From contig SVFS01000024.1 of assembly GCA_015056725.1 (NCBI GenBank), forward strand, positions 1 to 33,220: 33,220 nucleotides of DNA, read 5' to 3'. This DNA is from Lachnospiraceae bacterium (GTDB lineage: Bacteria; Bacillota; Clostridia; Lachnospirales; Lachnospiraceae). Under the pieces are notes generated by a model. It worked only from the letters and a program-made list of their open reading frames with translations, was not told the DNA's origin and made no database searches. Position 1 is the first letter of the stretch. The number at the start of each line of letters is the position of its first letter. This document shows positions 19,839-33,220 of this stretch, piece after piece. The position numbers were made by a program, and so were the translations under genes.

Positions 19839-21134
19839 TTATTTCATAAATAAATTCGGCAGGAACATACTGATTCCCGGAATAAATGTAAGAAGCAGTA
19901 ATACTACGATCATGCAAAGGTAGAACGGTAATGTTGCTTTAACAACACGTTCCATTTTAACTTTACCTACAGCAGAACCGATGAAAAGAACTGCACCTAC
20001 AGGTGGTGTCAATAAACCGATACCACAGTTGAGAATCATCATGATACCGAACTGAATCGGATTAATACCAATACTGGTTGCAATCGGTAATAAGATAGGT
20101 GTAGCAATCAAAATGATTGGAGCCATATCCATAATACAACCAAGAACAAGTAAAATCAGGTTTAATAAAATAGCAATCACGTATGGGTTATCAGAAACAC
20201 CAATAATTGCTTTTGCTGCCATATCCGGTACGTGTAAAGTTGTTAAACAGAAACCAAAGATACTGGATGTGGAAATCAAAATAAGTACTACGGATAAGAT
20301 ATCAACACATTTTTCCAGTTCCTGCCATACACCTTTCCATGTAAGACCTCTGTAAATAAATACAGAAACAATCAAGCTGTAGATAACGGCAATCGCTGCA
20401 GATTCTGTAGCAGTAAACCAACCGCCTACTACACCAACTACTACGATGATGATTGCTGCCAGTGCCCAGAAAGATACGGATAACTGTTTGATTAATGCCT
20501 TAAAGCTGAACTTATCTCCTTTTGGATAATGTCTCTTTTTAGAGATAATGTAAGAACCAATCATTAAGGAAATAGCAAGCATTGCGCCCGGAATATAACC
20601 TGCCAGGAATAAACTACCTACAGAAATACCGCCGGCACTCATTGCGTAAATTACCATGTTATGACTTGGAGGTACTAAAAGGCCTTCACAAGAAGAAGTA
20701 ATGGTAACTGCTGTCGAGAAGTCATCATCATATCCCTGATCAACCATCATAGGAATTAAGATACTTCCAAGAGAAGCTGTATCTGCGGAAGCAGAACCGG
20801 AAATACCACCGAAGAAGTAAGAAGCAACGATATTTACCATCGCCATACCACCGGTCATCCATCCTACACAGGCATTTGCCAGTGCAATCAGTTTCTCCGA
20901 TATACCACCGGAGCCCATCAGACATCCCATGGTAATAAAGAACGGTACCGCCATCAAACTGAAGGAACGAATACCTTTTACCATTTGCTGACATACAGTA
21001 ATAAGCGGTTTATCCATTGCGATTAAGCAGAACATAGAAGACAATGCAACTGCATATGCAATCGGAAAACGAAGGAGAATCATAATAAGAAAACTGCCAA
21101 GTAATACTAAAATCGCTAATTGTTGAGCATCCAT
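19839..21134 (-). CDS. dctM: TRAP transporter large permease (DctM)
   Basis: 431-residue inner-membrane permease with about 12 hydrophobic segments, the ion-coupled translocation subunit of a tripartite ATP-independent periplasmic transporter. Family blocks include FFGGISGSASADTASLGSILIPMM (in parts: FFGGISGSASADTASLG, SILIPMM), TITSSCEGLLVPPSHN and the late GIGLLTPPVGAVLF. Length is typical (about 425-435). Its ATG overlaps the dctQ stop by one base (TAATG), so the two membrane subunits are translationally coupled. Substrate is inferred to be galacturonate and/or glucuronate from the downstream catabolic genes. Confidence 0.95.
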   Translation of the reverse strand: MDAQQLAILVLLGSFLIMILLRFPIAYAVALSSMFCLIAMDKPLITVCQQMVKGIRSFSLMAVPFFITMGCLMGSGGISEKLIALANACVGWMTGGMAMVNIVASYFFGGISGSASADTASLGSILIPMMVDQGYDDDFSTAVTITSSCEGLLVPPSHNMVIYAMSAGGISVGSLFLAGYIPGAMLAISLMIGSYIISKKRHYPKGDKFSFKALIKQLSVSFWALAAIIIVVVGVVGGWFTATESAAIAVIYSLIVSVFIYRGLTWKGVWQELEKCVDILSVVLILISTSSIFGFCLTTLHVPDMAAKAIIGVSDNPYVIAILLNLILLVLGCIMDMAPIILIATPILLPIATSIGINPIQFGIMMILNCGIGLLTPPVGAVLFIGSAVGKVKMERVVKATLPFYLCMIVVLLLLTFIPGISMFLPNLFMK

Positions 21135-21658
21135 TATTCATTTTCCTCCTTTACGCAAATTTCTCTGATACGCTGATATAATTTTTCTATCTGGAAAATC
21201 AGCATTGCAACACCTGCCATTGGTACAGGCAGATACATCCAGAATCTGGATACCTTAGGCATACTTGTGAAAGTCGCCTTTGCACCGATACCTGTTGCAT
21301 ATTCCCAACCTACAGTAATCATAACTACTGCCAGTGCAAGCACCATAATGTCGGCCAGAAAATCAAGGAAAATCAAAACCTTTTTCGGCAAATATCTGTC
21401 GAAAGCATCCATACGAATATGGGCACCTCTACGGATAGCCAACGCCGCTGATAATACCGCCATATAAGACATCAATGTAAGCACCACTTCTTCACTCCAT
21501 GCCGGATCATCGATAAACGGTACATAACGGCCAAGTACAGCATAAGAAGTGATAGCAATATCTGCTACCAACAGTACTTTACAAATACAAAGTACTGCTT
21601 TGTACAGGATGTCATACAGGGGTTTAATCTTATCAATTGTCTTAAAAACAGATGACAT
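21134..21658 (-). CDS. dctQ: TRAP transporter small permease (DctQ)
   Basis: 174-residue membrane protein with four hydrophobic helices, matching the DctQ small subunit. Recognisable features are the early TSYAVLGRYVPFIDDPAWSE block with the family's conserved R-Y and W-x-E, and the following LRRGAHIRMD-like sequence (IRRGAHIRMDAF). Start chosen at ATG 21658, preceded by GGAGGAGAAGG; the frame stays open for 23 more codons upstream, but those run through the hairpin after dctP and have no ribosome site. It is coupled to dctM by TAATG. Confidence 0.92.
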   Translation of the reverse strand: MSSVFKTIDKIKPLYDILYKAVLCICKVLLVADIAITSYAVLGRYVPFIDDPAWSEEVVLTLMSYMAVLSAALAIRRGAHIRMDAFDRYLPKKVLIFLDFLADIMVLALAVVMITVGWEYATGIGAKATFTSMPKVSRFWMYLPVPMAGVAMLIFQIEKLYQRIREICVKEENE

Positions 21659-21683
21659 AACCTTCTCCTCCCACTCCATCTGA

Positions 21684-21718
21684 AAAATATAGGGCACAGA
21701 GATCACTCCCTGTGCCCT
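21684..21718 (-). terminator. Stem-loop with U run between dctP and dctQ
   Basis: On the minus strand AGGGCACAG pairs with CUGUGCCCU (21710-21718 and 21691-21699) around a 10-base loop, then AUA and five U. It resembles a leaky intrinsic terminator or 3' stabiliser. Such an element would leave much more dctP message than dctQM message, as is usual for binding-protein genes at the head of transporter operons. Confidence 0.75.
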
Positions 21719-21769
21719 CAAACACATTTTACTTTATTTCACTATGTAAAATCTATAGTTTGTTTGAAA

Positions 21770-22867
21770 TTACTGAAGATCTAAGATCTGCTGATATACA
21801 TCTTCAAGACCTGCTGTCTGTTCTTCGATAACAGATTTTGTAGCTTCCTGCCATGGTGTAATATCTGTAACTTCAACAATCTTTGTACCTTCAGCTTTTA
21901 ATTCTTCAAGTACTTTTGCTTCAGCGTCTGCAGAGATCTGTTTGTTGTATGCAGATGCAACTTTACCAGCTTCAACGAGAACATTCTGCTGTTCTTCTGT
22001 TAATTTATCCCATGCTTCATCTGTGATGATAACCTGAATAGCACCAAGTGTATGACCATCAAGGATCATTGTACCAGCTACTTCCTGGAATGCATTAGAT
22101 TTGTAGTTAGCGATTGGCTGTTCAGCACCGTCTACTACACCTGTCTGTAATGCAGAGTATAATTCACCGAAAGCTACTACTGTTGGAGATGCACCAAGAC
22201 CTTCTACAAGACCGTTCATAACAGGGTCATCAGATACACGAAGTTTTAAGCCTGCTAAATCTTCAATAGAGTTAAGTTCTGTAGCTGTGAAGAAATGACG
22301 GAAACCTTCTTCTCCGTAGAATAAACCTCTTACACCACTTCCGTTAACCTGTGGCTCAAGAAGGAAATCGCTTGCTAAATCAGATTCTGCGAAATTCCAG
22401 AAATGTTCACGGCTTACGAATGTGTAAGGAAGAGATAATAATTTGGATTTCTGTCCGCCGTAGCTTGTTAAAGCGAAAGCAGAGATACGGGACATATCAA
22501 TTGTGCCAGCGCCACCGAGCATAGCGTCAAGTACGTCGTTTTCTGCACCTAATACACCACTGTGCTGGATGTCGATGATGATAGAACCATTAGACATTTC
22601 TTCTACTGTTTCTTTGAACTTTGTAGCTGTCTGTCCAACGATAGAATCAAGTGGATTAACTTCTGCGTATACTAATGTAACTGCTTCTGCTGCTGGAGCT
22701 GCTTCTTCTGCTGCTGGAGCTTCTGCTTCTGCTGCTGGAGCTTCTGTTGCTGCCGGAGCTTCTGTTGCTGCCGGAGCTGCTGGTGCTTCTGGCTCTTTAA
22801 GACCACATGCTGTAAGAGAAGCAACCATTGCTACACATAAAAGTGCTGCTAATAATTTCTTTTTCAT
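21770..22867 (-). CDS. dctP: TRAP transporter substrate-binding lipoprotein (DctP)
   Basis: 365-residue extracellular binding protein. The signal peptide ends in a lipobox, LTAC, with Cys21 for lipid anchoring. A low-complexity Ala/Pro/Glu linker follows (about 25-62), then the SBP family 7 domain. Typical blocks are ATKFKETVEEMSNGSI, the Arg-bearing DLAGLKLRVSDDPV and ALQTGVVDGAEQPIANYKS. It delivers the substrate to DctQ/M. AGGAGG ribosome site; strong hairpin after the stop. It is the first gene of the uronate run, with a possible promoter at 22923-22952. The binding domain probably recognises uronates, judged from gene context. Confidence 0.93.
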   Translation of the reverse strand: MKKKLLAALLCVAMVASLTACGLKEPEAPAAPAATEAPAATEAPAAEAEAPAAEEAAPAAEAVTLVYAEVNPLDSIVGQTATKFKETVEEMSNGSIIIDIQHSGVLGAENDVLDAMLGGAGTIDMSRISAFALTSYGGQKSKLLSLPYTFVSREHFWNFAESDLASDFLLEPQVNGSGVRGLFYGEEGFRHFFTATELNSIEDLAGLKLRVSDDPVMNGLVEGLGASPTVVAFGELYSALQTGVVDGAEQPIANYKSNAFQEVAGTMILDGHTLGAIQVIITDEAWDKLTEEQQNVLVEAGKVASAYNKQISADAEAKVLEELKAEGTKIVEVTDITPWQEATKSVIEEQTAGLEDVYQQILDLQ

Positions 22868-22922
22868 TCTTATTCCCTCCTGAAAAGATTGTTAAACATT
22901 CGGGCACTTCGCCCTTACCACT

Positions 22923-22952
22923 ATTATCAAGGAGAGACTTGTCTTCCGTAAA
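22923..22952 (-). promoter_or_regulatory. Candidate promoter of the TRAP/uronate genes
   Basis: Minus strand TTTACG (22947-22952) and GATAAT (22923-22928), spacing 18, about 55 bases before dctP. The -35 box is part of a direct repeat (TTACGGT-TTACGGA), the sort of arrangement bound by AraC-type regulators such as the one encoded at 16916. A small hairpin GGGC-GAAGU-GCCC lies in the leader at 22902-22914. Seen by eye; no other copy of the repeat was found upstream of other genes here. Confidence 0.35.
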
Positions 22953-22983
22953 CCGTAAAATTTTAATTTATATAGTAGATTTT

Positions 22984-24174
22984 TTACAAATCAACATTTT
23001 TCTTTCGTAAATAAGTTACATATCCTGCCAATCCCAATATGCAAATCATGTCAATAATTACCACAAATACAACCGATTGCATTCCATAATAAATACCGGA
23101 AGTTTCTGCAATTTTTCCGATAATGGACGGCATAAGGATAGAACCCGTACTTGCAATTGTCAAAATAAAACTCCATGCAAGGGAATACTTCTGGATAATT
23201 GTTCCTGTAAAAGAAACCGTGGTCGGATAAATTCCCGACATGCTAAAGCCAAAGCCCATAATTCCCAAAAGAATCCATTTTGTCGTAGTTCCAAATAAAA
23301 GAAGTATGAAAAATCCTACAAGTCCAACTCCCATCAACACTAAAAGCTTTTCTTTCTTTACCTTAGAGGATGCCCATGCCACAAGCAGTCTTCCCACTAA
23401 AATCATAATCCAAAGCACACTTGCGGTTACCTGTGAAAGAGACTCCGGTAAAAGACCTGTATCTTTAAAATATGTAATCATCCAACCGATAACGCCCTGC
23501 TCTGCGCATAAATAAAAGAACAGCGTAAGTGTACACACATAGAATAACGGTTCTTTAAAGAAACCGAACCCTGCACCGTCTTTCTTTTCCTGTTTCACTA
23601 CCTTATCATTTTCAAGCGGAATAATATAATACATGCACCAGCTCAAAACACCCATAGCAAGCATAAAATAGCATGCATATATCCAGTTTGCTTCATTAGA
23701 TGCCGTAATCGCCAATAAGATAAGCGGGAATGCAAAAGCACCGATGGCAAACATCGCATGTAAACCATTCATAATAGAAGCTTTTCCCGGTGCAAGCTCG
23801 TTAATCGCTTTATTGCAGAAATTACTGGTAGCACCTCTTGCAACACCGGTTAAGAAAAATGCCGCTGCTATAAAAAGCGGATTCTCTCCCAGAATGATCA
23901 ACAGATACGATAATGCAAAAAATGAATTAAAAATCAAAATGCTCTTCTTTCTGCCAATCCATATCGGTAACGCACCACTAATAAAGCTGGACAAAAGGTT
24001 TCCTACGGAATGTAAGCTTACTATCATTCCACAAAATACATATTCCAATCCTTTGGCATCTCTGATAAACGGCAATAATGAGCCTATCGAAAGTGCCAGC
24101 ATACCATTTACGACAAAAACGCCATAACTACAAATAAACTGTTTTTTCTTTGCACTATTTTGTAAAAACTCCAT
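22984..24174 (-). CDS. MFS permease (sugar-type)
   Basis: 396-residue major facilitator with 12 predicted membrane helices. A central cytoplasmic loop (about residues 192-208, rich in Lys/Glu) separates the two halves, and the inter-helix 2-3 motif ISGALPIWIGRKKSILI is a form of the MFS G-x3-D/[GR]-R-[KR] loop. General resemblance is to fucose/glucose permease-type MFS carriers, but the substrate is unclear. It starts 11 bases after the reverse transcriptase stop, and its ribosome site (GAGGAC) abuts that stop, so it can be read from the same transcript. It may be an extra uronate or oligosaccharide importer or belong to another pathway. Confidence 0.85.
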   Translation of the reverse strand: MEFLQNSAKKKQFICSYGVFVVNGMLALSIGSLLPFIRDAKGLEYVFCGMIVSLHSVGNLLSSFISGALPIWIGRKKSILIFNSFFALSYLLIILGENPLFIAAAFFLTGVARGATSNFCNKAINELAPGKASIMNGLHAMFAIGAFAFPLILLAITASNEANWIYACYFMLAMGVLSWCMYYIIPLENDKVVKQEKKDGAGFGFFKEPLFYVCTLTLFFYLCAEQGVIGWMITYFKDTGLLPESLSQVTASVLWIMILVGRLLVAWASSKVKKEKLLVLMGVGLVGFFILLLFGTTTKWILLGIMGFGFSMSGIYPTTVSFTGTIIQKYSLAWSFILTIASTGSILMPSIIGKIAETSGIYYGMQSVVFVVIIDMICILGLAGYVTYLRKKNVDL

Positions 24175-24185
24175 TTCTTTGTCCT

Positions 24186-25415
24186 CTACATTTCTTTTTG
24201 TTTATAGTGTTTATAGTGTTCATAGTATTCATGAACCAGGCTTTGGTAGCCCCATTTTTTCATTTGTTCATAGGATGTCCTATAGTTCCCCTTATAGTGA
24301 CGGCCTGTAACGCAGTATCTGACATATTGCTGCATATACGCATCTATCTCTTTTAAACCAATATCTGTAGTCAGACACGAAAAAAACCACCTGCTCCAGG
24401 AAAACTCCGTACCATCGCCGCTATCATAAAGTTTTCTGTTCATTGCCCGGACAAATCCTTTGGCCGCTCGTTCTCCATCCAGATTCTTTTTCTCCGACCA
24501 TCTGCGAAGGGCATGGGCTTTTCGTTTTATTTTGTCTTTCATTTTTTGTATCGTCGCAGCAGATAAGTCCACACTGCCGTGTCGGAAACAAAAGCCCAAA
24601 AACTCAAATCCTTCTTCCGGTTTGCTGATATGTACTTTCTTCGGATTTAATTGCAGTTGTTTTTCTTTAAGCCATTGATATAACTGCTCTTTTCTCCGTT
24701 CCAGTTCTGTATCAGTATCTGCAAACAATAAAATATCATCAGAATACCGAAAATACAATACATTTTCTTTCTCAAAAAAATGATCCATGTCCATCAGATA
24801 CACATTTGCCAGAAACGGTGAAATCGGTGTTCCCGCCATGGCACCACGTTTTTCCCTAATACATTTTTCTATTCCGTCTTCACTGACAACCGCTACATCC
24901 GCAGTCAATAATCTCTCTAAAAAATCAAATAGTTTTCCATCCTCTTGCCTCAAAAAAGATAATTGGTTTAAAAGCTGATGTACATTAATGGAATTAAAAT
25001 AATTGCTGATATCTACTTTCAAACAATACTTTTTTTCTATTCCACTTGTTTTACGAAGCCGTTTCACTGCATCTTTTACCCCATAATTTCTACGGAACGC
25101 ATAACAATTATCCGCAAAAACAGTATCGTAACGATATAATAAATATGCCTGCAATTTCAAAAGCATACTGAAATCTCCGGCAAAAGAATATACAACCCTC
25201 TTTTTTGATGCACCAAGTTTATTAATCTCCTTCTTATAAGGAGATGGTAAATTTCCCCCTGACGCAAGTTCCAAAAGTACCGGCTGATATCTTTTCTGTC
25301 CGATATATTCCTCCAGTTCTTTTTGCTCTTTGTCGGATAAATGTTGTTTTTCTATTTTGTACTCTAAAAATTCCTGCCATACTTCTGGCAGGAACTGTTT
25401 ATCCCATAACTCCAT
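24186..25415 (-). CDS. Stand-alone reverse transcriptase, unassigned group
   Basis: 409-residue RNA-directed DNA polymerase. Motifs in order: KVDISNYFNSI (catalytic Asp135), RGAMAGTPISPFLANVYL (190-207), FRYSDDILLFAD (catalytic Asp226-Asp227), LQLNPKK (254-260) and FEFLGFCF (270-277). A helical thumb and a C-terminal block WSRWFF...YVRYCVTGRHYKGNYR...GYQSLVHEYY (340-398) follow. There is no HNH endonuclease or maturase domain as in group II introns, no retron-type NAxxH motif or thumb VTG element that I can align, and no DGR-type motif 4 or variable-repeat target. The last codons are a degenerate 9-base tandem repeat (HYEHYKHYK-like tail). A structured RNA element lies 25 bases upstream. Probably a defence-type (DRT/retron-like) or domesticated RT. 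Confidence 0.9.
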   Translation of the reverse strand: MELWDKQFLPEVWQEFLEYKIEKQHLSDKEQKELEEYIGQKRYQPVLLELASGGNLPSPYKKEINKLGASKKRVVYSFAGDFSMLLKLQAYLLYRYDTVFADNCYAFRRNYGVKDAVKRLRKTSGIEKKYCLKVDISNYFNSINVHQLLNQLSFLRQEDGKLFDFLERLLTADVAVVSEDGIEKCIREKRGAMAGTPISPFLANVYLMDMDHFFEKENVLYFRYSDDILLFADTDTELERRKEQLYQWLKEKQLQLNPKKVHISKPEEGFEFLGFCFRHGSVDLSAATIQKMKDKIKRKAHALRRWSEKKNLDGERAAKGFVRAMNRKLYDSGDGTEFSWSRWFFSCLTTDIGLKEIDAYMQQYVRYCVTGRHYKGNYRTSYEQMKKWGYQSLVHEYYEHYKHYKQKEM

Positions 25416-25440
25416 TTCCGTTTCCCCAATTAAGCTTATA

Positions 25441-25591
25441 AAAAAAGAAAGAGAAATAACTTTGAAGGAAACAAAGCGTGCTTGTTTCTACCAGACTGAA
25501 CATATCCCTGCTACCTGCAAAGCACCTTTCGGAATAGGATATGCTTCATCCATCACAGGTGTAACTACCGTCACATTTCTCTTTCTTTTCT
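25441..25591 (-). ncRNA. Putative structured RNA associated with the reverse transcriptase
   Basis: The 185-base gap upstream of the RT gene is closed by a perfect 15-bp inverted repeat (25443-25457 and 25575-25589) that extends to 17 bp with one G-U pair. Between the arms lie 117 bases that fold on the minus strand into three hairpins. H1 is GUGAC-GGUA-GUUAC (25561-25574). H2 has a 10-bp stem AGCAUAUCCU/GGGAUAUGUU (25499-25545) enclosing a CC-GAAA-GG tetraloop. H3 is GAAACAAG/CUUUGUUUC with one bulge (25468-25488). The layout (long closing arms, several hairpins, RT start 25 bases downstream) is that of a retron msr-msd or DRT-type template RNA. RNA status is inferred; no promoter is obvious. 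Confidence 0.6.
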
Positions 25592-25600
25592 ATCACTAAT

Positions 25601-26095
25601 TTATGCAAACTCTCTTCGGATTCTTTCTTCCATATAGCCATACTCATTTGGCAGATATTCAAAGAAATCAACCATCTTTATACCATTATTGTCACAATAA
25701 TTTTTCAGTTCACGGTTTGCTGTATGTTTATAGCTTTCATAAGTATCCCAAAGATTCACAAAACCTTTGCGTTCGCCATCTTTAGAGATAACGTATGTAA
25801 ACATATCCGGTTTTGCAAAGCAGCCTCCACGAGAATAAATCTGTCTGCCGGCTTCTGCTTCAAGTGCATCCGGTGAAAATCCTCTTTGGACTTCATAGCC
25901 TTCCATTCCGTTCATAATCTGAGTAAACTTCATATCAAAGTTTCTGTTATCTGCCAGTTTTCTTGTTGGCTGTTCATTGTCTGACTGACCCAAACCATTC
26001 CGAATGGCGTCTGTCACCACATCAGATACTACATCCGTTACCGCTTCTTTTACCGCCTTTAAGCCCTTTTCCATTAACTTATCAAATAACCCCAT
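25601..26095 (-). CDS. Hypothetical protein
   Basis: 164-residue soluble protein that I do not recognise. The N-terminal third is an amphipathic helix rich in Val/Asp/Lys (MGLFDKLMEKGLKAVKEAV...), followed by a polar linker and a compact C-terminal domain of mixed composition with several aromatics (about 55-164, including GFVNLWDTYESYKHTANRELKN in parts). There is no signal peptide or membrane helix. A good AGGAGG ribosome site lies 7 bases before the ATG. The stop is 10 bases from the outer arm of the putative RNA element, so read-through from this gene could supply the RNA and RT transcript. A functional link to the RT is possible but unproven. Confidence 0.75.
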   Translation of the reverse strand: MGLFDKLMEKGLKAVKEAVTDVVSDVVTDAIRNGLGQSDNEQPTRKLADNRNFDMKFTQIMNGMEGYEVQRGFSPDALEAEAGRQIYSRGGCFAKPDMFTYVISKDGERKGFVNLWDTYESYKHTANRELKNYCDNNGIKMVDFFEYLPNEYGYMEERIRREFA

Positions 26096-26149
26096 ATGTA
26101 TCCTCCTATTTTATCAAACATCGCAAACATTTTGAGTATAGCAGACGCC

Positions 26150-27304
26150 TTACATGTTTTCAACAAAATTCCGCACTTCTTCCTGCAGATAGTTTCCAAG
26201 TTTCCCTTGTACATAACCGCTTTGACCGCCGCCTTTTCCGGAAAATGCTTCGTTCAATTTTTTCGCCGTTTCACGTACATCTCCACCTTTGCTGCTGAGT
26301 ACATAATTGTATCCATCATCTCCGTTTTGGGAAAGCAGCAAATAGGTTTTATCACTATTTTCTGTCAGCTGATTGGCACAATATCTTAAATCATCAAAAG
26401 ACAGATTTTCTGTCATGGCATAAACCAAATCATTTACTTCTGTCAATTCTAATTCAAGAAATGCCAAACGTTTTGCTACTTTTTGATAATCCCCACGAAG
26501 CGTCTGATAAGCACTATTTCTTTCACGTACCGCTTCCACCACTCCGTCTCTCGGTGCCGACAGCATTTTCATAATTTCCTTAATCGAACTATTCAAGCTC
26601 ATATAATCCAAAAGTGCATTTTTGCCTGCCACCATCTCGATACGTGTTCCCTGCTTGTAAGAAGCAAAGTCTATTACTTTAATCATACCGACTTCGCCCG
26701 TTCTTGCCACATGCGGAGCACAGCATGCACAGCAGTCGATATCTTCTCCGATCGTAACAATACGCACATCACTTTCCAAATCCAGCTTGCTTCTGTACTG
26801 CAATTTTTCAAGTTCTTCCTTTTTCGGGTAATATGCAACAACATCGGCATTGGCATATACTGCTTCATTTGCCTTCAGTTCTATCTTTCTAATATCATCT
26901 GCTGACAAGCTTCCGTTAAAATCAACAGACATGGTTTTATCTCCCATATGAAATCCTACATTATCATATCCGTACAGGGAATGAACGACGCCTGAGATAA
27001 TATGCTCGCCGGTATGCCCCTGCATTCTTGCATATCTCACGTCCCAGTCGATTTCACAGCTTACTTCCGCTCCGGTTTCCAGTTGCGATTCCAATATATG
27101 TAGAATAACAGAACCCTCTTCCTGTACATCCAAGACAGGCAAACCGTTTATCAATCCTTCATCTGCATCCTGTCCGCCGCCTTCCGGAAAAAAGGCTGTC
27201 TTATCCAAAACGATTCCATATTTTCCATCCATCTGTCTGCATTCAGTTACTACCGCATCAAAACTTTTGCAATATGCGTTTTTTTCATATAGTTTTTCAG
27301 TCAT
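26150..27304 (-). CDS. AlaX-type alanyl-tRNA editing protein
   Basis: 384-residue stand-alone homologue of the AlaRS editing region, which hydrolyses mischarged Ser- or Gly-tRNA(Ala). An N-terminal AlaRS-like beta-barrel (about 1-90, including FFPEGGGQDADEG) precedes the Zn-binding editing site HTGEH (97-101) and C-x3-H (Cys194, His198 in CCACCAPH). A long helix and a DHHA1-like C-terminal domain ending in GKGGGQSGYVQGK follow. The size and C-terminal domain fit the long AlaX-L type. It lies 17 bases after the asparaginase-family gene, within a run of tRNA-charging genes. Ribosome site GGAAGAA. Confidence 0.92.
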   Translation of the reverse strand: MTEKLYEKNAYCKSFDAVVTECRQMDGKYGIVLDKTAFFPEGGGQDADEGLINGLPVLDVQEEGSVILHILESQLETGAEVSCEIDWDVRYARMQGHTGEHIISGVVHSLYGYDNVGFHMGDKTMSVDFNGSLSADDIRKIELKANEAVYANADVVAYYPKKEELEKLQYRSKLDLESDVRIVTIGEDIDCCACCAPHVARTGEVGMIKVIDFASYKQGTRIEMVAGKNALLDYMSLNSSIKEIMKMLSAPRDGVVEAVRERNSAYQTLRGDYQKVAKRLAFLELELTEVNDLVYAMTENLSFDDLRYCANQLTENSDKTYLLLSQNGDDGYNYVLSSKGGDVRETAKKLNEAFSGKGGGQSGYVQGKLGNYLQEEVRNFVENM

Positions 27305-27321
27305 GTTTTTCTTCCTTCATC

Positions 27322-28416
27322 TTAGTTTTTCATATCTACTAATTCAAAATTATATTCGTTTTCAAGAAATGCCTTTCTGTCTTCTTCTTTTTCAAAAACA
27401 GAATATGCCATCACAAGTTTTGCATATGCCATTTCATAAGTATAACCATACAAAAAGTTTGCTTTTTTTCCATTTACTGTATGATTCCCAATGGTTGGTA
27501 TCGTCTCGTATGTACCATTTCTGCATATGGAAGGTGAAAAGTATACATCCACGTTCTTTCCTCCTTCAAAACATCTGTCTAACATATACAGTACGGAATG
27601 CTCTCCATAAGTCTCACTCTTCTCCGTCTTTTCCGCACATGCAGTTCCTGAATGAAACGTTCCATGGAGTACTGCTGAAAATCTGCCATAATCATATATA
27701 GAATAATTAATTCCTACATATGGTGTTATATATAACACGCAATCTTTTAGCTTCCAATCCCCGAATATATTGACTGCTTCCTTCCGGTCTGCTTGTGGAA
27801 ACATTGTTTTCAGTTTTTCAAAATATAACGGATAATTCTCTTCTGTCATGTCAGACAAATCAAATTCGCCGGTGCTATGAAAATCTTCTGTATAATTTTC
27901 ACATTGTCTGAGTCTTGATGCAAGATGGAGATACATCTTTCCATCTGACAGGTTCTGATAAGGTACATAAACATTTGGCATGATACCACGACAGATGCAT
28001 TCCATGGCACATTTGAAATTCGCGTTACCATTCGTTCTTTCCGACTTTAAATTCTCATTGGCAGATACAAGAAACACCGGTACTTTGGTGCCACTAAGGA
28101 GGATAGAAAAAAGAGCTGCCGAATACGCCAACGTATCTGTCCCATGAGCCATAATAATTCCGTCATATGTATTATCTTTTGTGTATTTCCTGTATGTATC
28201 GATAATCGTATTCCATTTATCGACAGTCATATTTTCACTTAAGATATATAAGTTCTCTGTGGGTTCTATTATCACGTCATTTACATACGGCGAATCAGAA
28301 TGCTTATAGTTTTCCACAAGCAATGCACCTGCTTTATCACTAACAGAAAGATTTCCCTCTTCATTTAACGAGGTGCAGATGGTTCCGCCCACAAGTATCA
28401 GCAATACTTTTTTCAT
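27322..28416 (-). CDS. Asparaginase/glutaminase-family protein
   Basis: 364-residue member of the bacterial L-asparaginase family. The N-terminal nucleophile block LVGGTICTS has Thr12, and the second block IMAHGTDTLAYSA supplies Thr93-Asp94. The usual catalytic Lys region is not clear: the matching segment reads LASRLRQCENY, with Arg where Lys is expected. The enzyme may therefore be altered or specialised. No signal peptide, so cytoplasmic. The Cys/Lys-rich C-terminal half is divergent. It follows gatB by 70 bases across a weak hairpin and precedes alaX by 17 bases. Family members release ammonia from Asn or Gln; the archaeal GatD amidotransferase subunit belongs to the same family, which matters because the local GatA is degenerate. 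Confidence 0.82.
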   Translation of the reverse strand: MKKVLLILVGGTICTSLNEEGNLSVSDKAGALLVENYKHSDSPYVNDVIIEPTENLYILSENMTVDKWNTIIDTYRKYTKDNTYDGIIMAHGTDTLAYSAALFSILLSGTKVPVFLVSANENLKSERTNGNANFKCAMECICRGIMPNVYVPYQNLSDGKMYLHLASRLRQCENYTEDFHSTGEFDLSDMTEENYPLYFEKLKTMFPQADRKEAVNIFGDWKLKDCVLYITPYVGINYSIYDYGRFSAVLHGTFHSGTACAEKTEKSETYGEHSVLYMLDRCFEGGKNVDVYFSPSICRNGTYETIPTIGNHTVNGKKANFLYGYTYEMAYAKLVMAYSVFEKEEDRKAFLENEYNFELVDMKN

Positions 28417-28457
28417 AGCTTCTCCGTTTTTATATTACATTTACTATCATGAATAAT

Positions 28458-28480
28458 AGCGGGAGCTTATCACTCCCGCT
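28458..28480 (-). terminator. Hairpin after gatB
   Basis: AGCGGGAG/CTCCCGCT (8 bp, 28458-28465 and 28473-28480) with a 7-base loop, starting 7 bases after the gatB stop. The tail AUUAUUCAU is a poor U tract, so this is probably a partial terminator that lets some transcripts reach the asparaginase-family and alaX genes. Confidence 0.65.
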
Positions 28481-28486
28481 TTATCA

Positions 28487-29911
28487 TTAACATTTACTCA
28501 ATTTTTCATCAAGAAGTTCTCTGATTACATCTGTATCAGCAGTATTCTTTAATTCGCGCATACAAGCACCAAACAATGCCTGTTTTGCTTTTACTTTACC
28601 ATTCTTGTAATCTTCGATTGCTTTTGTATTTTCTGCAAACACACGATCCATAACGCTTTCAATCGTTGCTGTATCAACCTTTGTATCCAGTGCGTTTTCT
28701 TTACAATAAGCAACAGGGTCTACACCTTCTTCCAGAACAGCAGTCAAAATCTTTCTACCGCTCATTCTGTTTACATCACCGCTGTCTACCATTTTGATAA
28801 TTGCTGCAAGATCTTTTGCTGTAATTTCCAAATCGCCTAATAATTTGCCGTTTTTGCGTAGAATTCCCACGCAATCCGTAAGTAACCAGCCTGCTGCATT
28901 TTTCGCATCACAGCCCATCGCAACCACTTCATCCAAAATCGTGCTTACGTTATGATTATGAATCAGCATATCAATTTCTTTTTCTGATATACCCGCTTCT
29001 CTGTACATGTCAGCTTTTTCATCAATCGCTACCGGTTTTGCAGCCTTAATCTGTTCAAGCCATTCATCATCAATGATAATCGGCATCAGATTTGCATCCG
29101 GGAAGTAACGGTAATCTGCTTCTGTTTCTTTATTACGCATTGCAAATGTCTTTCCGCTTGCATCATCAAAACGTCTTGTTTCCTGTACAAGTTCTTCTGT
29201 TTCGAACTCGATAGCATCGATATGACGCTGTACTTCGTAGCGGATAGCTTTTTCAATTGCTTCGAAAGAAGCCATGTTTTTAATTTCTGTACGGACACCA
29301 AATTCTGTACTTCCTTCCGGACGGACAGAAATATTAACGTCACAACGCATAGCGCCTTCTTCACATTCAGAAATACCGCTGGAACGGAACATCGTTTTTA
29401 ATTTATTCAAATAAGCCAATACTTCTTCCGCACTACGGAAATCAGGCTGTGTAACAATTTCAATAAGCGGAACGCTGGTACGGTTAAAGTCAACATAAGA
29501 TGCTTTTCCCATGTGAACTAACTTGCCTGCGTCTTCTTCCATATGAATCTGTTTGATATGGATATCTCTTTCCCCAGCTGAAGTTTTGAGTGTCACACAT
29601 CCATTTGTACAAATCGGATGATTTAACTGTGTAATCTGATATGCACACGGAAGGTCAGGATAGTAATAGTTCTTCTTATCAAATGTAGTGTATCTGCTGA
29701 TTTCACAATTCAGCATAAGTCCTGCTGTAACAGCAAGTTCTACTACCTTCTTATTCATAATCGGAAGCATACCCGGCATACCGCTGCAGGCAGGGCATAC
29801 ACAATCGTTAGGTTCCTTCGGTGAGGAATGACCTCCACAAGAGCAGAAAATCTTAGAATCAGTACTAAGTTCTACGTGTGTTTCAAGACCAATGACCATT
29901 TCATATTTCAT
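28487..29911 (-). CDS. gatB: Aspartyl/glutamyl-tRNA amidotransferase subunit B
   Basis: 474-residue GatB, the kinase/transamidase subunit that activates Asp- or Glu-tRNA and adds ammonia to form Asn- or Gln-tRNA. The N-terminal block YEMVIGLETHVEL, the Zn-type cysteine cluster (FCSC ... CVCPAC, about 22-42), the KNYYYPDLP segment, IKQIHMEEDAGKL (about 119-131), and the C-terminal YqeY-like tail domain are all present. Length and motifs look intact. It begins 2 bases after gatA. Its ammonia source is in question because the adjacent GatA lacks catalytic serines. Confidence 0.96.
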   Translation of the reverse strand: MKYEMVIGLETHVELSTDSKIFCSCGGHSSPKEPNDCVCPACSGMPGMLPIMNKKVVELAVTAGLMLNCEISRYTTFDKKNYYYPDLPCAYQITQLNHPICTNGCVTLKTSAGERDIHIKQIHMEEDAGKLVHMGKASYVDFNRTSVPLIEIVTQPDFRSAEEVLAYLNKLKTMFRSSGISECEEGAMRCDVNISVRPEGSTEFGVRTEIKNMASFEAIEKAIRYEVQRHIDAIEFETEELVQETRRFDDASGKTFAMRNKETEADYRYFPDANLMPIIIDDEWLEQIKAAKPVAIDEKADMYREAGISEKEIDMLIHNHNVSTILDEVVAMGCDAKNAAGWLLTDCVGILRKNGKLLGDLEITAKDLAAIIKMVDSGDVNRMSGRKILTAVLEEGVDPVAYCKENALDTKVDTATIESVMDRVFAENTKAIEDYKNGKVKAKQALFGACMRELKNTADTDVIRELLDEKLSKC

Positions 29912-29913
29912 AG

Positions 29914-31098
29914 TTATTCACCTACCCTTTCAGTACTTCCTGCAAGGCTGAGCAGAACACTTTCGCTAAAATACTTGCCCATCAGCTGAACTCCACCACT
30001 TACGAGCGCCGGAATTCCAATCAGGTTTGCAACAGCAGTAAATACGCTTTCCTTGAAAACAGTTTCAAATGCTTCGCTTATGTCATAAGCTTTATATTCC
30101 GTCTTGCTGCATACAGGAGTAAGAATTGCATCATAATTTTTCATCAATTCTTCAAACTTATCTGCAATTACGCGACGTACCTTAAGGGCTTTGCCATAGC
30201 AATCATCATAACGGTTCTTGGATAACACATCAGAACCATAGAGAATCACTGACTTCGTTAAGAAGTTAAAGCCTTCTGTTCTTGTATTTACATATAATTC
30301 ATCAATGTTTTTATATTCTGCCGCACGATGACCGAACTTCACGCCGTCATAACGGGAAACATTGTTACACGTTTCTGCTGTCATCAGAATCTGCCATGTT
30401 GTATTTGCAATATCAAACATATCGCAGGAAACTTCTTCTACTACTACACCGTTTTCACGAAGCTTGTTAGCGAAAGCATCTACTTTCTTACAAGTTTCTT
30501 CATCTGCCTTTTCCATAAGCTCTTTCGCAATACAAACTTTTTTGCCTGCTACCGGCAGTTTCGTATCGTAATCATAAGAAGCATCTTTCAGACTTGTTCC
30601 GTCCTTTTCATCATGTCCTGCAATGACATCCATCACTTCTTTAACAGCTTCTACATTGCCGCCATATACGCCAAGCTGTTCACCGGAAGCCGCACAGGAG
30701 ATTACACCATAACGGGAAACGGTACCATAAGAAGGTTTCAAAAAGTCTACATTTGATAACGCTGCAGCACGTCTTGTTGCTCCAGTCATATCAACGCCAA
30801 GTGCTGCTTTTACCGCACCTTTTGAAACAAGCTGTGCAGCTGCACCTTTTAAAACTTCTTCTTTTTCTGCATAATAAGAAAATTCGCCTACTAAATCGAG
30901 ACCGAACTCGCCTACCTGCGTTTTGCCGGAAATCACATACCCTTTGTCTTCCAAACGGGTAACTGCTTCCGCACTAAATAATGGCTTAAAGCCTTCCATT
31001 ATACGGGAACCTGCTGCGGACTGTGCATCTTTTACAAGTATGGTATCGTCAACTGCGATTGTTCCCTTATCAGATAACTGTACTGTATATTCTTTCAT
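29914..31098 (-). CDS. GatA homologue with lost amidase active site
   Basis: 394 residues against about 485 for normal GatA; roughly 65 N-terminal residues are missing. It aligns along the amidase-signature fold: ILVKDAQS matches the PIGVKDNI block (Lys23 kept). The GGSSGGSAA loop has become LKGAAAQLV (83-91), removing the cis-Ser, and GSDTGGSIRQPA has become GVDMTGATRRAA (101-112), placing Ala107 where the nucleophile Ser should be. Downstream FLKPSYGTVSRYGVI is well conserved, so the reading frame is maintained and the fold is probably intact. It should not hydrolyse Gln or Asn. Start taken at ATG 31098, with GAGGTG 6 bases upstream; a GTG at 31107 lies within that ribosome site. Probably a structural subunit. 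Confidence 0.9.
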   Translation of the reverse strand: MKEYTVQLSDKGTIAVDDTILVKDAQSAAGSRIMEGFKPLFSAEAVTRLEDKGYVISGKTQVGEFGLDLVGEFSYYAEKEEVLKGAAAQLVSKGAVKAALGVDMTGATRRAAALSNVDFLKPSYGTVSRYGVISCAASGEQLGVYGGNVEAVKEVMDVIAGHDEKDGTSLKDASYDYDTKLPVAGKKVCIAKELMEKADEETCKKVDAFANKLRENGVVVEEVSCDMFDIANTTWQILMTAETCNNVSRYDGVKFGHRAAEYKNIDELYVNTRTEGFNFLTKSVILYGSDVLSKNRYDDCYGKALKVRRVIADKFEELMKNYDAILTPVCSKTEYKAYDISEAFETVFKESVFTAVANLIGIPALVSGGVQLMGKYFSESVLLSLAGSTERVGE

Positions 31099-31108
31099 TC
31101 TACGCACC

Positions 31109-33184
31109 TCACTTTACAAGTCGTGGCACCTGCCAACTGTCTTCATTACGTTCAGGAGCTCCTGCAAGCAGACTTTCTCTTGTAAACGGCTGCTTTCTCA
31201 CGTCTTCACGAAGAACATTGGTCATAGGCTGGACATAAATCATTTCTTCCACATTTTCTGTATCAATCGTCTTTAATGCATCTTCATGCTCTTTCATCAT
31301 CTTGAAAATGTTCTGCATATCATTATCTTCTGTTTCTGTTAAAGACAACTGGTTCAGCTGCTGGGAGTTGGAGAACGTAGAACGTTTCTCGCCACGGGTT
31401 TTATTACCGCCAACAGGCACTGCGCGTGAAGCAAGTGCATTTGTACTGCCGAGCAGATGTACATCTTCCAACTGCTGGTTTGTAACTTCACTTGGTGCAC
31501 CCAGAAGAAGATCCTGTGCATTACCATTCAGCGGGAATGCGATTACTTCCAAAATCTTTTCTTCATCTGTAAGGAGCATTACCATACGGTCAATACCAGG
31601 CGCCATACCTGCATGTGGTGGTGCACCATACTGGAATGCTGTATAAAGTGCGTTAAATCTGGATTTTAATTCATCTTCTGTATAGCCTGCGATTTCAAAA
31701 GCTTTTTTCATGATATCGATATCATGGTTACGGACAGCTCCTGATGCCAGCTCGATACCGTTACATACAAGGTCATACTGATAAGCCAGAACCTGTGTCG
31801 GATCATCTCCCAGTAACGCTTCCATTCCGCCCTGTGGCATAGAGAATGGGTTGTGTGTAAAGATTGTTTCACCTGTTTCTTCATCGTTTTCATACATTGG
31901 GAAATCAACAATGAAACAGAACTCGAACGCATCATCACGGATTAAATCAAGCTGTTCTTTTGCTGCAAGCCAGGAACGGATATGTCCTGCTTTCTTTTCT
32001 GTATCGTTTTTCTTATCGTCACAGATAAAGAATAATGTTTCGCCTTCTTTTACACCTGTTATTTCTATAATTTCAGCTTTCTTTGCATCAGATAAAAACT
32101 TTGCAATCGGGCCTGCAAATACGCCTTCTTTTAATGTAATGTATCCGAGACCGCCAAGTCCTACTTCCGGAGAAGTTGCAAACTTCAGGGAATCTTCAAA
32201 GAACTTTTTGGATTTGCCTACACAGTTTGCCACAATACCGCGTACTGGTTTGCCTTTAAATGCAGGGAAATCTACATCTGCAAAAAATGCTGTCAAGTCT
32301 TCGATAATCAATGGGTTACGAAGGTCCGGTTTATCAGAACCGTATTTCATCATGGATTCTGCATATGTGATACGGCGGAATGGCTTTGGAGTAATCTTCT
32401 TGTCAGAAAATGTCTTGAAAGTATCGTATACTACATCTTCACACACATCCAAAACTTCTTCCTGAGTTGCAAAAGCCATCTCGAAGTCAAGCTGATAGAA
32501 TTCACCCGGAGAACGGTCTGCTCTTGCATCCTCATCTCTGAAACATGGTGCTACCTGGAAATATCTGTCAAATCCGGAAACCATCAAAAGCTGCTTAAAC
32601 TGCTGCGGAGCCTGTGGCAGAGCATAGAATTTGCCCGGATGCTTACGGCTTGGCACGAGGAAGTCACGGGCACCTTCTGGAGATGATGCAGTCAGAATCG
32701 GTGTCTGCATATCCAAAAAGCCTTTTTCTTCCATCTTATTACGTAAGTGACGGATAATCTTTGATCTCACTACAAGTTTTTCATGATTCTTTGGATTACG
32801 AAGATCCAGATAACGGTATTTTAAACGGAGCTCATCCTTGCTCATATGAGAGGAACGAACTTCAAACGGTAACATGTTGCGGCTCTTGCCAAGTACCTGA
32901 AGAGAATCTGCTACAAGCTCTACATAACCTGTATCAATCTTCTCATTTACAGTTTCAGGTGCACGCTTCTCTACTTTACCTGTTACGGAAATAACAGTTT
33001 CACGATTCACATTTTTAAGCAGTTCTTCATCATGAACTACGACCTGTGTTACACCGGTATAGTCACGTAAATCAATGAAAATAACGCCACCATGGTCACG
33101 TACTACATCTACCCATCCGGCAAGTTGTACGGTACTGCCGATATGCTTATCGCAGATATCATTACAGTATTGTGTTCTATACAT
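31109..33184 (-). CDS. aspS: Aspartyl-tRNA synthetase fused to GatC
   Basis: 691 residues. Residues 1 to about 585 are a full bacterial-type class IIb AspRS: OB-fold anticodon domain (1-110), motif 2 FRDEDARADRSPGEFYQLD in parts, the bacterial GAD insertion, and motif 3 GMAPGIDRMVMLL, ending LLLGAPSEVTNQQLEDVHL. A linker leads to a GatC domain (about 605-691), recognisable by TIDTENVEEM, the Met-x-Asn-VLREDV block and the terminal WQVPRLVK. No ribosome site precedes the internal Met of the GatC part, so it is a true fusion. It physically joins Asp-tRNA charging to the amidotransferase, as in a transamidosome for Asn-tRNA. AGGAGG site before the ATG; first gene of the gatA-gatB operon. Confidence 0.95.
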   Translation of the reverse strand: MYRTQYCNDICDKHIGSTVQLAGWVDVVRDHGGVIFIDLRDYTGVTQVVVHDEELLKNVNRETVISVTGKVEKRAPETVNEKIDTGYVELVADSLQVLGKSRNMLPFEVRSSHMSKDELRLKYRYLDLRNPKNHEKLVVRSKIIRHLRNKMEEKGFLDMQTPILTASSPEGARDFLVPSRKHPGKFYALPQAPQQFKQLLMVSGFDRYFQVAPCFRDEDARADRSPGEFYQLDFEMAFATQEEVLDVCEDVVYDTFKTFSDKKITPKPFRRITYAESMMKYGSDKPDLRNPLIIEDLTAFFADVDFPAFKGKPVRGIVANCVGKSKKFFEDSLKFATSPEVGLGGLGYITLKEGVFAGPIAKFLSDAKKAEIIEITGVKEGETLFFICDDKKNDTEKKAGHIRSWLAAKEQLDLIRDDAFEFCFIVDFPMYENDEETGETIFTHNPFSMPQGGMEALLGDDPTQVLAYQYDLVCNGIELASGAVRNHDIDIMKKAFEIAGYTEDELKSRFNALYTAFQYGAPPHAGMAPGIDRMVMLLTDEEKILEVIAFPLNGNAQDLLLGAPSEVTNQQLEDVHLLGSTNALASRAVPVGGNKTRGEKRSTFSNSQQLNQLSLTETEDNDMQNIFKMMKEHEDALKTIDTENVEEMIYVQPMTNVLREDVRKQPFTRESLLAGAPERNEDSWQVPRLVK

Positions 33185-33220
33185 AACAAAACCTCCTATG
33201 ATGAAACAACCAAAAACCCT

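Follow-up and report, generated by a model that had tools for sequence, protein, structure and literature searches.

DRTs make strikingly different DNA products. One group of reverse transcriptases (RTs), UG26, reportedly goes back to a survey of UG/Abi RTs from 2022, and the RNA family RT-5 to one of structured RNAs from 2017. Both the RT (RT_UG26) and the RNA (RT-5) are already named in databases. The literature searched, whose reach stopped short of subscription papers and the founding surveys, gave no description of an RNA or a partner for UG26; the UG26 label is carried there by RTs of cold-seep viruses (available part of PMC10504277). Among the closest described systems, DRT10 (UG17) needs three components for phage defence, an RT, an ncRNA of 137 nt and a SLATT protein, and its RT makes repeat cDNA from its ncRNA (available part of PMC12632851). 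The RNA of DRT2 is pseudoknotted (available part of PMC12039810).

The window analysed here is the whole stretch of 33,220 nt of contig SVFS01000024.1 (GCA_015056725.1, Lachnospiraceae bacterium), numbered on the forward strand. On its minus strand lie, in this order, a gene for a 164-residue protein (hereafter the partner), a structured RNA element and a gene for a 409-residue RT, together one locus of about 1.9 kb (Table 1) whose host is a gut bacterium. This locus is like DRT10 in having three parts, a compact RT and a structured RNA beside the genes, but the DRT10 RNA lies upstream of the SLATT gene whereas the UG26 RNA sits between partner and RT, and the partner is DUF2726-like by hhalign with no SLATT match. 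DRT10 furthermore uses an A-B-A' direct repeat, whereas the UG26 junctions J3/4 and J5/1 showed no enrichment for one. DRT9 and DRT2 likewise join an RT to its own structured RNA, which measures 280 nt in DRT2 and about 150 nt here, but the UG26-linked RNA carries no homopolymer common to all copies.

Table 1. Features of the UG26 locus (forward-strand positions within the window).
Feature	Position	Strand	Basis
Promoter-like site 5' of partner gene: TTGAAA-17-TATACT, TG ahead of second hexamer	26135-26163	-	motif scan
Partner, 164 aa, with short conserved N-terminal stretch, linker and DUF2726-like domain at the C-terminus	25601-26095	-	profiles
Whole RNA element: RT-5 core, closing stem P1 and hairpin P2	25443-25589	-	Rfam match and fold
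P1 5' arm, pairs with 25443-25457	25575-25589	-	base pairing
P2 hairpin, 5 bp, loop of 4	25561-25574	-	fold
Rfam RF03026 (RT-5) match, 64.9 bits	25454-25564	-	gathering cut-off 45.7
Pseudoknot strand PK5 (ACCUGU), partner strand PK3	25555-25560	-	covariation
P3 long hairpin	25492-25552	-	covariation
J3/4, variable loop inside P3	25525-25536	-	alignment
P4, hairpin capping P3	25509-25524	-	covariation
Pseudoknot strand PK3 (GCAGGU), within P4 hairpin loop	25513-25518	-	covariation
P5 hairpin, sequence variable	25468-25488	-	fold
J5/1, conserved unpaired UUCAAAG-like segment	25458-25467	-	alignment A2
P1 3' arm, then U-rich stretch	25443-25457	-	base pairing
Reverse transcriptase, RT_UG26 (DRT), YSDD active site	24186-25415	-	ORF 409 aa; profile match

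A first-pass annotation of the window had described an RT of 409 residues with an intact YSDD, preceded by a closing stem and internal hairpins in the RT orientation, and had read the layout as that of a retron or a DRT-type system. The open reading frame was confirmed, and its product matched the PADLOC model RT_UG26 (PDLC03764) over nearly its full length (531 bits, E 3.4e-160, residues 1-402), with the runner-up PADLOC model at 136 bits. The models that followed UG26 (generic RT, UG4, UG27, Cas1-fused RT, UG17 at 117 bits, UG18 and Drt9) all scored 95 to 136 bits. The RT alone matched among the four window proteins searched against PADLOC. Judged by these profiles, the window RT is a UG26 (DRT group) reverse transcriptase. 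The NCBIfam retron St85 model aligned to it at 68.3 bits (cut-off 235) and the NCBIfam group II maturase model at 135.8 bits (cut-off 300), while in an Rfam search of the window RT-5 was the sole match over its gathering score, with no intron RNA. Template and variable repeats of the DGR kind were sought in 20000-33220, where only a low-complexity family and one 70% pair of 44 nt appeared. By the tests made, the window RT is thus not that of a retron, a group II intron or a DGR. The DRT half of the earlier reading is supported by the UG26 profile, RT-5, co-occurrence and strong covariation, and the retron half is unsupported, the St85 score lying far below its cut-off. Of the two retron features that the same annotation found missing, NAxxH is indeed absent from the window RT (it is present by string in 2 of 34 RT copies), but VTG occurs at residue 369, near the C-terminus (by string in 9 of 34 copies).

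A profile search of PDB with the RT placed a group II intron RT nearest (6ar1, E 7.5e-34), and a chain titled Drt2 was matched at E 2.2e-13. The locus shares with Class 2 (ncRNA-templated) DRTs an ncRNA of its own linked to the RT gene (beside it in 32 of 34 copies); profile scores do not by themselves place UG26 with the Class 2 groups, because the generic RT and group II maturase models (136 bits) equal the other UG models in score and the nearest PDB chain is a group II intron RT.

The RNA element was recognised by an Rfam scan of the window as RT-5 (E 1.1e-10). Its core scores above the family cut-off, P1 mostly and P2 largely lie outside the 104-position Rfam model, and PK5 is unpaired in the structure line of the match. 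P1, a stem of 15 bp that ends 27 nt 5' of the RT start codon, encloses P2, a long P3 capped by P4, and P5, all in the RT sense. Folded as a single sequence, 25438-25592 reached -48 kcal/mol (z -4.3); shuffles averaged -32.7 kcal/mol (sd 3.5), and 0 of 200 equalled it. The closing stem and hairpins of the first-pass annotation are therefore upheld.

Comparison of copies from RT homologues (alignment A2, 33 RNA copies; L138, found later, stands outside it) bore out the structure and revealed a six-pair pseudoknot between the strand 3' of P2 and the P4 loop. All 198 cells of this pseudoknot in the 33 copies hold standard pairs; all six pairs vary, five of them on both sides. Taken together with P3 and P4, it makes up 24 pairs, of which 93.1% of cells are paired across the 33 copies and 21 show two-sided changes. 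The 24 pairs scored 0.640 for covariation, where shuffles scored 0.278 and slid versions between 0.107 and 0.166, the latter comparison favouring the structure since it was drawn from the window sequence and the Rfam match. Some pairs are weaker: three fail in 9, 13 and 23 of the 33 copies, respectively, while a further five each fail in one or two copies. The two arms of P1 pair better within a copy (mean -16.7 kcal/mol) than when mixed between copies (-10.1), the own partner arm ranking first in 16 of 33 copies and in the top two in 24, with a rank of 13th in L030. P2 with at least four pairs is found in 24 of 33 copies (shuffles: mean 3.7, maximum 10). In L138 the pseudoknot sequence differs and is still fully complementary, and the P1 stem is kept with a different sequence. 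A scan over all column pairs gave no convincing additional helix.

J5/1 is the most conserved unpaired segment of the RNA (in A2, one A is invariant and two T occur in at least 90% of copies) and may be a candidate RT-binding site or template. J3/4 ranges from 6 to 46 nt across copies. A U-run 3' of P1 is present in the window and many copies and missing from others, e.g. L007 and L029.

RT and RT-5 RNA go together. A contig scan for relatives gave 10 loci, including L010, a decayed remnant in which two short pieces of a mostly deleted UG26 RT gene survive (L010:5904-6102). We then surveyed 295 genomes, the window's own and relatives, with thresholds of E 1e-60 for RT_UG26 and E 0.01 for RT-5, the latter run with Infernal's stricter filters. 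RT_UG26 was detected in 24 genomes and RT-5 in 23 (22 over the Rfam cut-off), all 23 lying inside the 24, hence RT-5 was found in 23 of 24 UG26 genomes vs 0 of 271 without UG26. With the window's included, there were 34 RT copies in total. An RNA was found for 33 of them: 32 have it upstream on the same contig and strand, and that of G097 lies at the end of a separate contig of the same assembly. The RNA of G069, one of the 33, scored 41.7 bits, under the Rfam cut-off, and the sole RT copy lacking an RNA (G288) is truncated to 312 aa. At the 31 loci where it was measured, the distance from RNA to RT start ranged from 25 to 477 nt. Among 398 Bacillota genomes drawn separately, RT-5 occurred in the window's genome and one other, and L138, a genome found through the RNA alone, also has the RT and a partner-like gene. 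Relatives extend to Coriobacteriales (L007). On a plasmid with a distant RT (L139), the same RNA search detected an intron RNA.

The partner is the conserved third component of the locus. Neighbour clustering yielded two groups of small proteins directly upstream of the RNA and on the same strand, at 9 and 8 loci, which profiles joined and extended. The gene is present in 21 of 34 RT copies (that of G097 counted via a second contig, L084), and is missing beside the RNA in 11 (including the truncated G288); in two (L005, L071) the contig ends too early to judge. This supports the suggestion in the first-pass annotation that the 164-residue protein might belong to the unit; its statement that no effector lies beside the RT is now doubtful, since that same upstream protein, a conserved partner, could be one. 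The partner profile matched 18 of 295 genomes, namely 17 of 24 UG26 genomes and G127, where a DUF2726 protein (E 1.3e-5) gave a weak match, the only one among 271 non-UG26 genomes; as most loci behind the profile come from the genomes surveyed, its recall is flattered and its specificity is not. L138 provided an out-of-sample match (E 4.7e-10) at the expected position. Longer versions at L074:7682-8797 and L138:1684-2382 keep the C-terminal domain and lack the MG(L/F) N-terminal stretch.

For the window partner, neither Pfam nor NCBIfam (both at E 1e-3) nor PADLOC (at E 0.01) gave a family match. With the Pfam threshold relaxed to E 1 for the 21 members, no family recurred in a second member and SLATT was not among the matches; a PDB search with the partner profile returned one chance match (E 1.4). 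By hhalign, the C-terminal domain is a remote relative of DUF2726 (PF10881), aligning to five rows of that family with 96% probability over 67 columns. We take DUF2726 to be a PD-(D/E)XK-like domain. Its invariant D and E read T and N in the window partner; of the 19 partners compared, one keeps D, the other 18 having T, S, V, I or Q instead, and eight keep E, the column alignment being uncertain. With the D and E columns so replaced, the domain may be nuclease-like in fold but probably does not act as a nuclease. For 7 of 21 partners, the window's included, the N-terminal hydrophobic moment ranked within the top 5% of shuffles, and for the other 14 it did not, hence an amphipathic N-terminus is a hint only.

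Distances between RTs correlated with those between partners (r 0.85) and between RNAs (r 0.79) over 19 loci, with 0 of 5000 permutations as high, though linked genes need no more than joint inheritance to give such correlations. On an RT tree of 33 rows including the window (L009 was excluded because it is short, at 161 aa; L005 and L035 carry no label), the partner occurs on the main branches and has been gained or lost at least five times; one of these changes rests on L024, a contig-end copy labelled partner-less. These changes, and its absence from 11 of 34 RT copies, indicate that the partner is not strictly required everywhere. The promoter-like site 5' of its gene is weak, since 24000-26400 holds 7 such sites where 6.8 are expected.

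The window locus sits among housekeeping genes. A fused synthetase-GatC gene (31109-33184) encodes a class II tRNA synthetase of the D/K/N type with an OB fold, a GAD domain and a C-terminal GatC domain, and is followed by genes for a GatA-like amidase, GatB, an asparaginase/GatD-like protein and an AlaX-like editing protein, forming a transamidation cluster. Overlapping 9-nt units at 22663-22797 form a low-complexity linker near the gene start of a DctP-type TRAP-transporter solute-binding protein. RT_UG26 was found in none of eight other genomes of the genus, and in an empty-site comparison the AlaX-like neighbour gene (26150-27304) was also absent from these eight. Kin of the AlaX-like gene lie within about nine genes of the UG26 loci L060 and L079, in one blast cluster of three loci, by chance or through a shared site. 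At three loci a tRNA gene stands less than 300 nt 3' of the UG26 RT gene (L060:10306-10380, L064:3297-3372, L068:8628-8704), as at insertion hot spots. Neither 50,697 phage records nor the 5,000 best-scoring plasmid records contained a relative of at least 60% identity; the RTs that came from phage, plasmid and viral collections were all distant (for plasmids, within the same 5,000 records), and the four viral RTs tested were UG27. These four, on IMG/VR viral contigs L111, L114, L115 and L116, have neither RT-5 RNA nor partner, and the partner was lacking at all 26 viral loci checked.

A DRT10-type A-B-A' repeat that might mark a template showed no enrichment: 64 of 300 shuffles reached the observed level in J3/4 and 55 of 300 in J5/1, and an A of 2 nt could escape the test. 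Elsewhere, the PK3/P4 region exceeded all shuffles (0 of 300 reached it) and the P5 region nearly all (12 of 300 did), but these are not read as templates because both are paired, by covariation or fold. For the 20 nt preceding PK5 and for the stretch following it, 281 and 294 of 300 shuffles were as high. For a gene-assembling concatemer like that of DRT2, stop-free frames were found in 11 of 31 concatenated cores, a count uncalibrated against chance that says little; the lengths of the 31 cores fall over the three frames as 13, 11 and 7.

We consider it probable that the partner protein, the RT-5 RNA and the UG26 RT, encoded in one orientation, form a three-part module of DRT type in which the RT copies its own RNA and the partner responds, in phage defence. 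The RT would bind the pseudoknotted RNA adjoining its gene and an unpaired RNA segment would template a cDNA, either short or repetitive. The partner, with its DUF2726-like, apparently nuclease-dead domain and an N-terminal helix perhaps touching the membrane, might sense the cDNA, bind it or be restrained by it. RNA binding, templating, cDNA, membrane contact and defence are steps that we infer; the families of RT and RNA, the RNA fold, the association of RT with RNA, the conservation of the partner and its distant kinship to DUF2726 are results of the analysis. Were the RNA instead a scaffold or regulator of RT assembly, the DNA made by the RT would be untemplated or templated otherwise; the shortness of J5/1, the most conserved unpaired segment, the variability of the J3/4 loop and the want of a repeat pattern marking a template all agree with this, but the Class 2 DRT RTs studied to date copy their own RNA (available parts of PMC13174585 and PMC12632851) and the UG17 and Drt9 models are among those next after UG26, hence we regard a scaffold as unlikely. 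An RNA lying on the coding strand between the genes of partner and RT, with a U-rich stretch 3' of its closing stem, could also act in cis as a leader controlling RT gene expression, e.g. by attenuation. This is improbable given how widely its distance to the RT start varies, and given the conservation of a pseudoknotted core that the search did not detect in any of the 271 genomes lacking the RT.

A retron, with P1 as the a1/a2 repeat of an msr-msd RNA, would account for a closing inverted repeat around internal hairpins in the RT sense and for the alignment of St85 (68 bits), but UG26 fits the RT far better, the window RT is without NAxxH and Rfam finds RT-5 alone in the window, so that this reading is scarcely credible. 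What the module does for its host is a separate question. Its position amid housekeeping genes and the absence of close relatives from the phage and plasmid records searched would suit a host function other than phage defence, yet the patchy spread of the RT (24 of 295 genomes and none of eight others of the genus), usual for accessory defence genes, and the decayed remnant at L010 speak against one, and we hold such a function to be distinctly unlikely. Within the three-part, RNA-copying module that we favour, a more specific proposal is that UG26 is an antiviral system whose catalytically dead nuclease-like protein, tethered by its N-terminal helix, reads RT-written DNA as a signal. We offer this tentatively, as a possibility that is more doubtful than probable; if true, it would be a cDNA-sensing partner of a kind new among DRTs.

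Beyond the existing database labels, the analysis brings out the pseudoknot and closing stem P1 of the RNA, the stem lying mostly outside the Rfam model, together with the co-occurrence of RT and RNA and the conserved partner protein. The locus suggests a compact DNA-writing module in which RT and RNA are kept together in relatives, and often the partner too. UG17 (DRT10), among the models next after UG26, builds telomerase-like repeats, and UG26 is a further group. With the RNA structure, pseudoknot, partner and gene boundaries in hand, what UG26 copies and how its product acts become testable.
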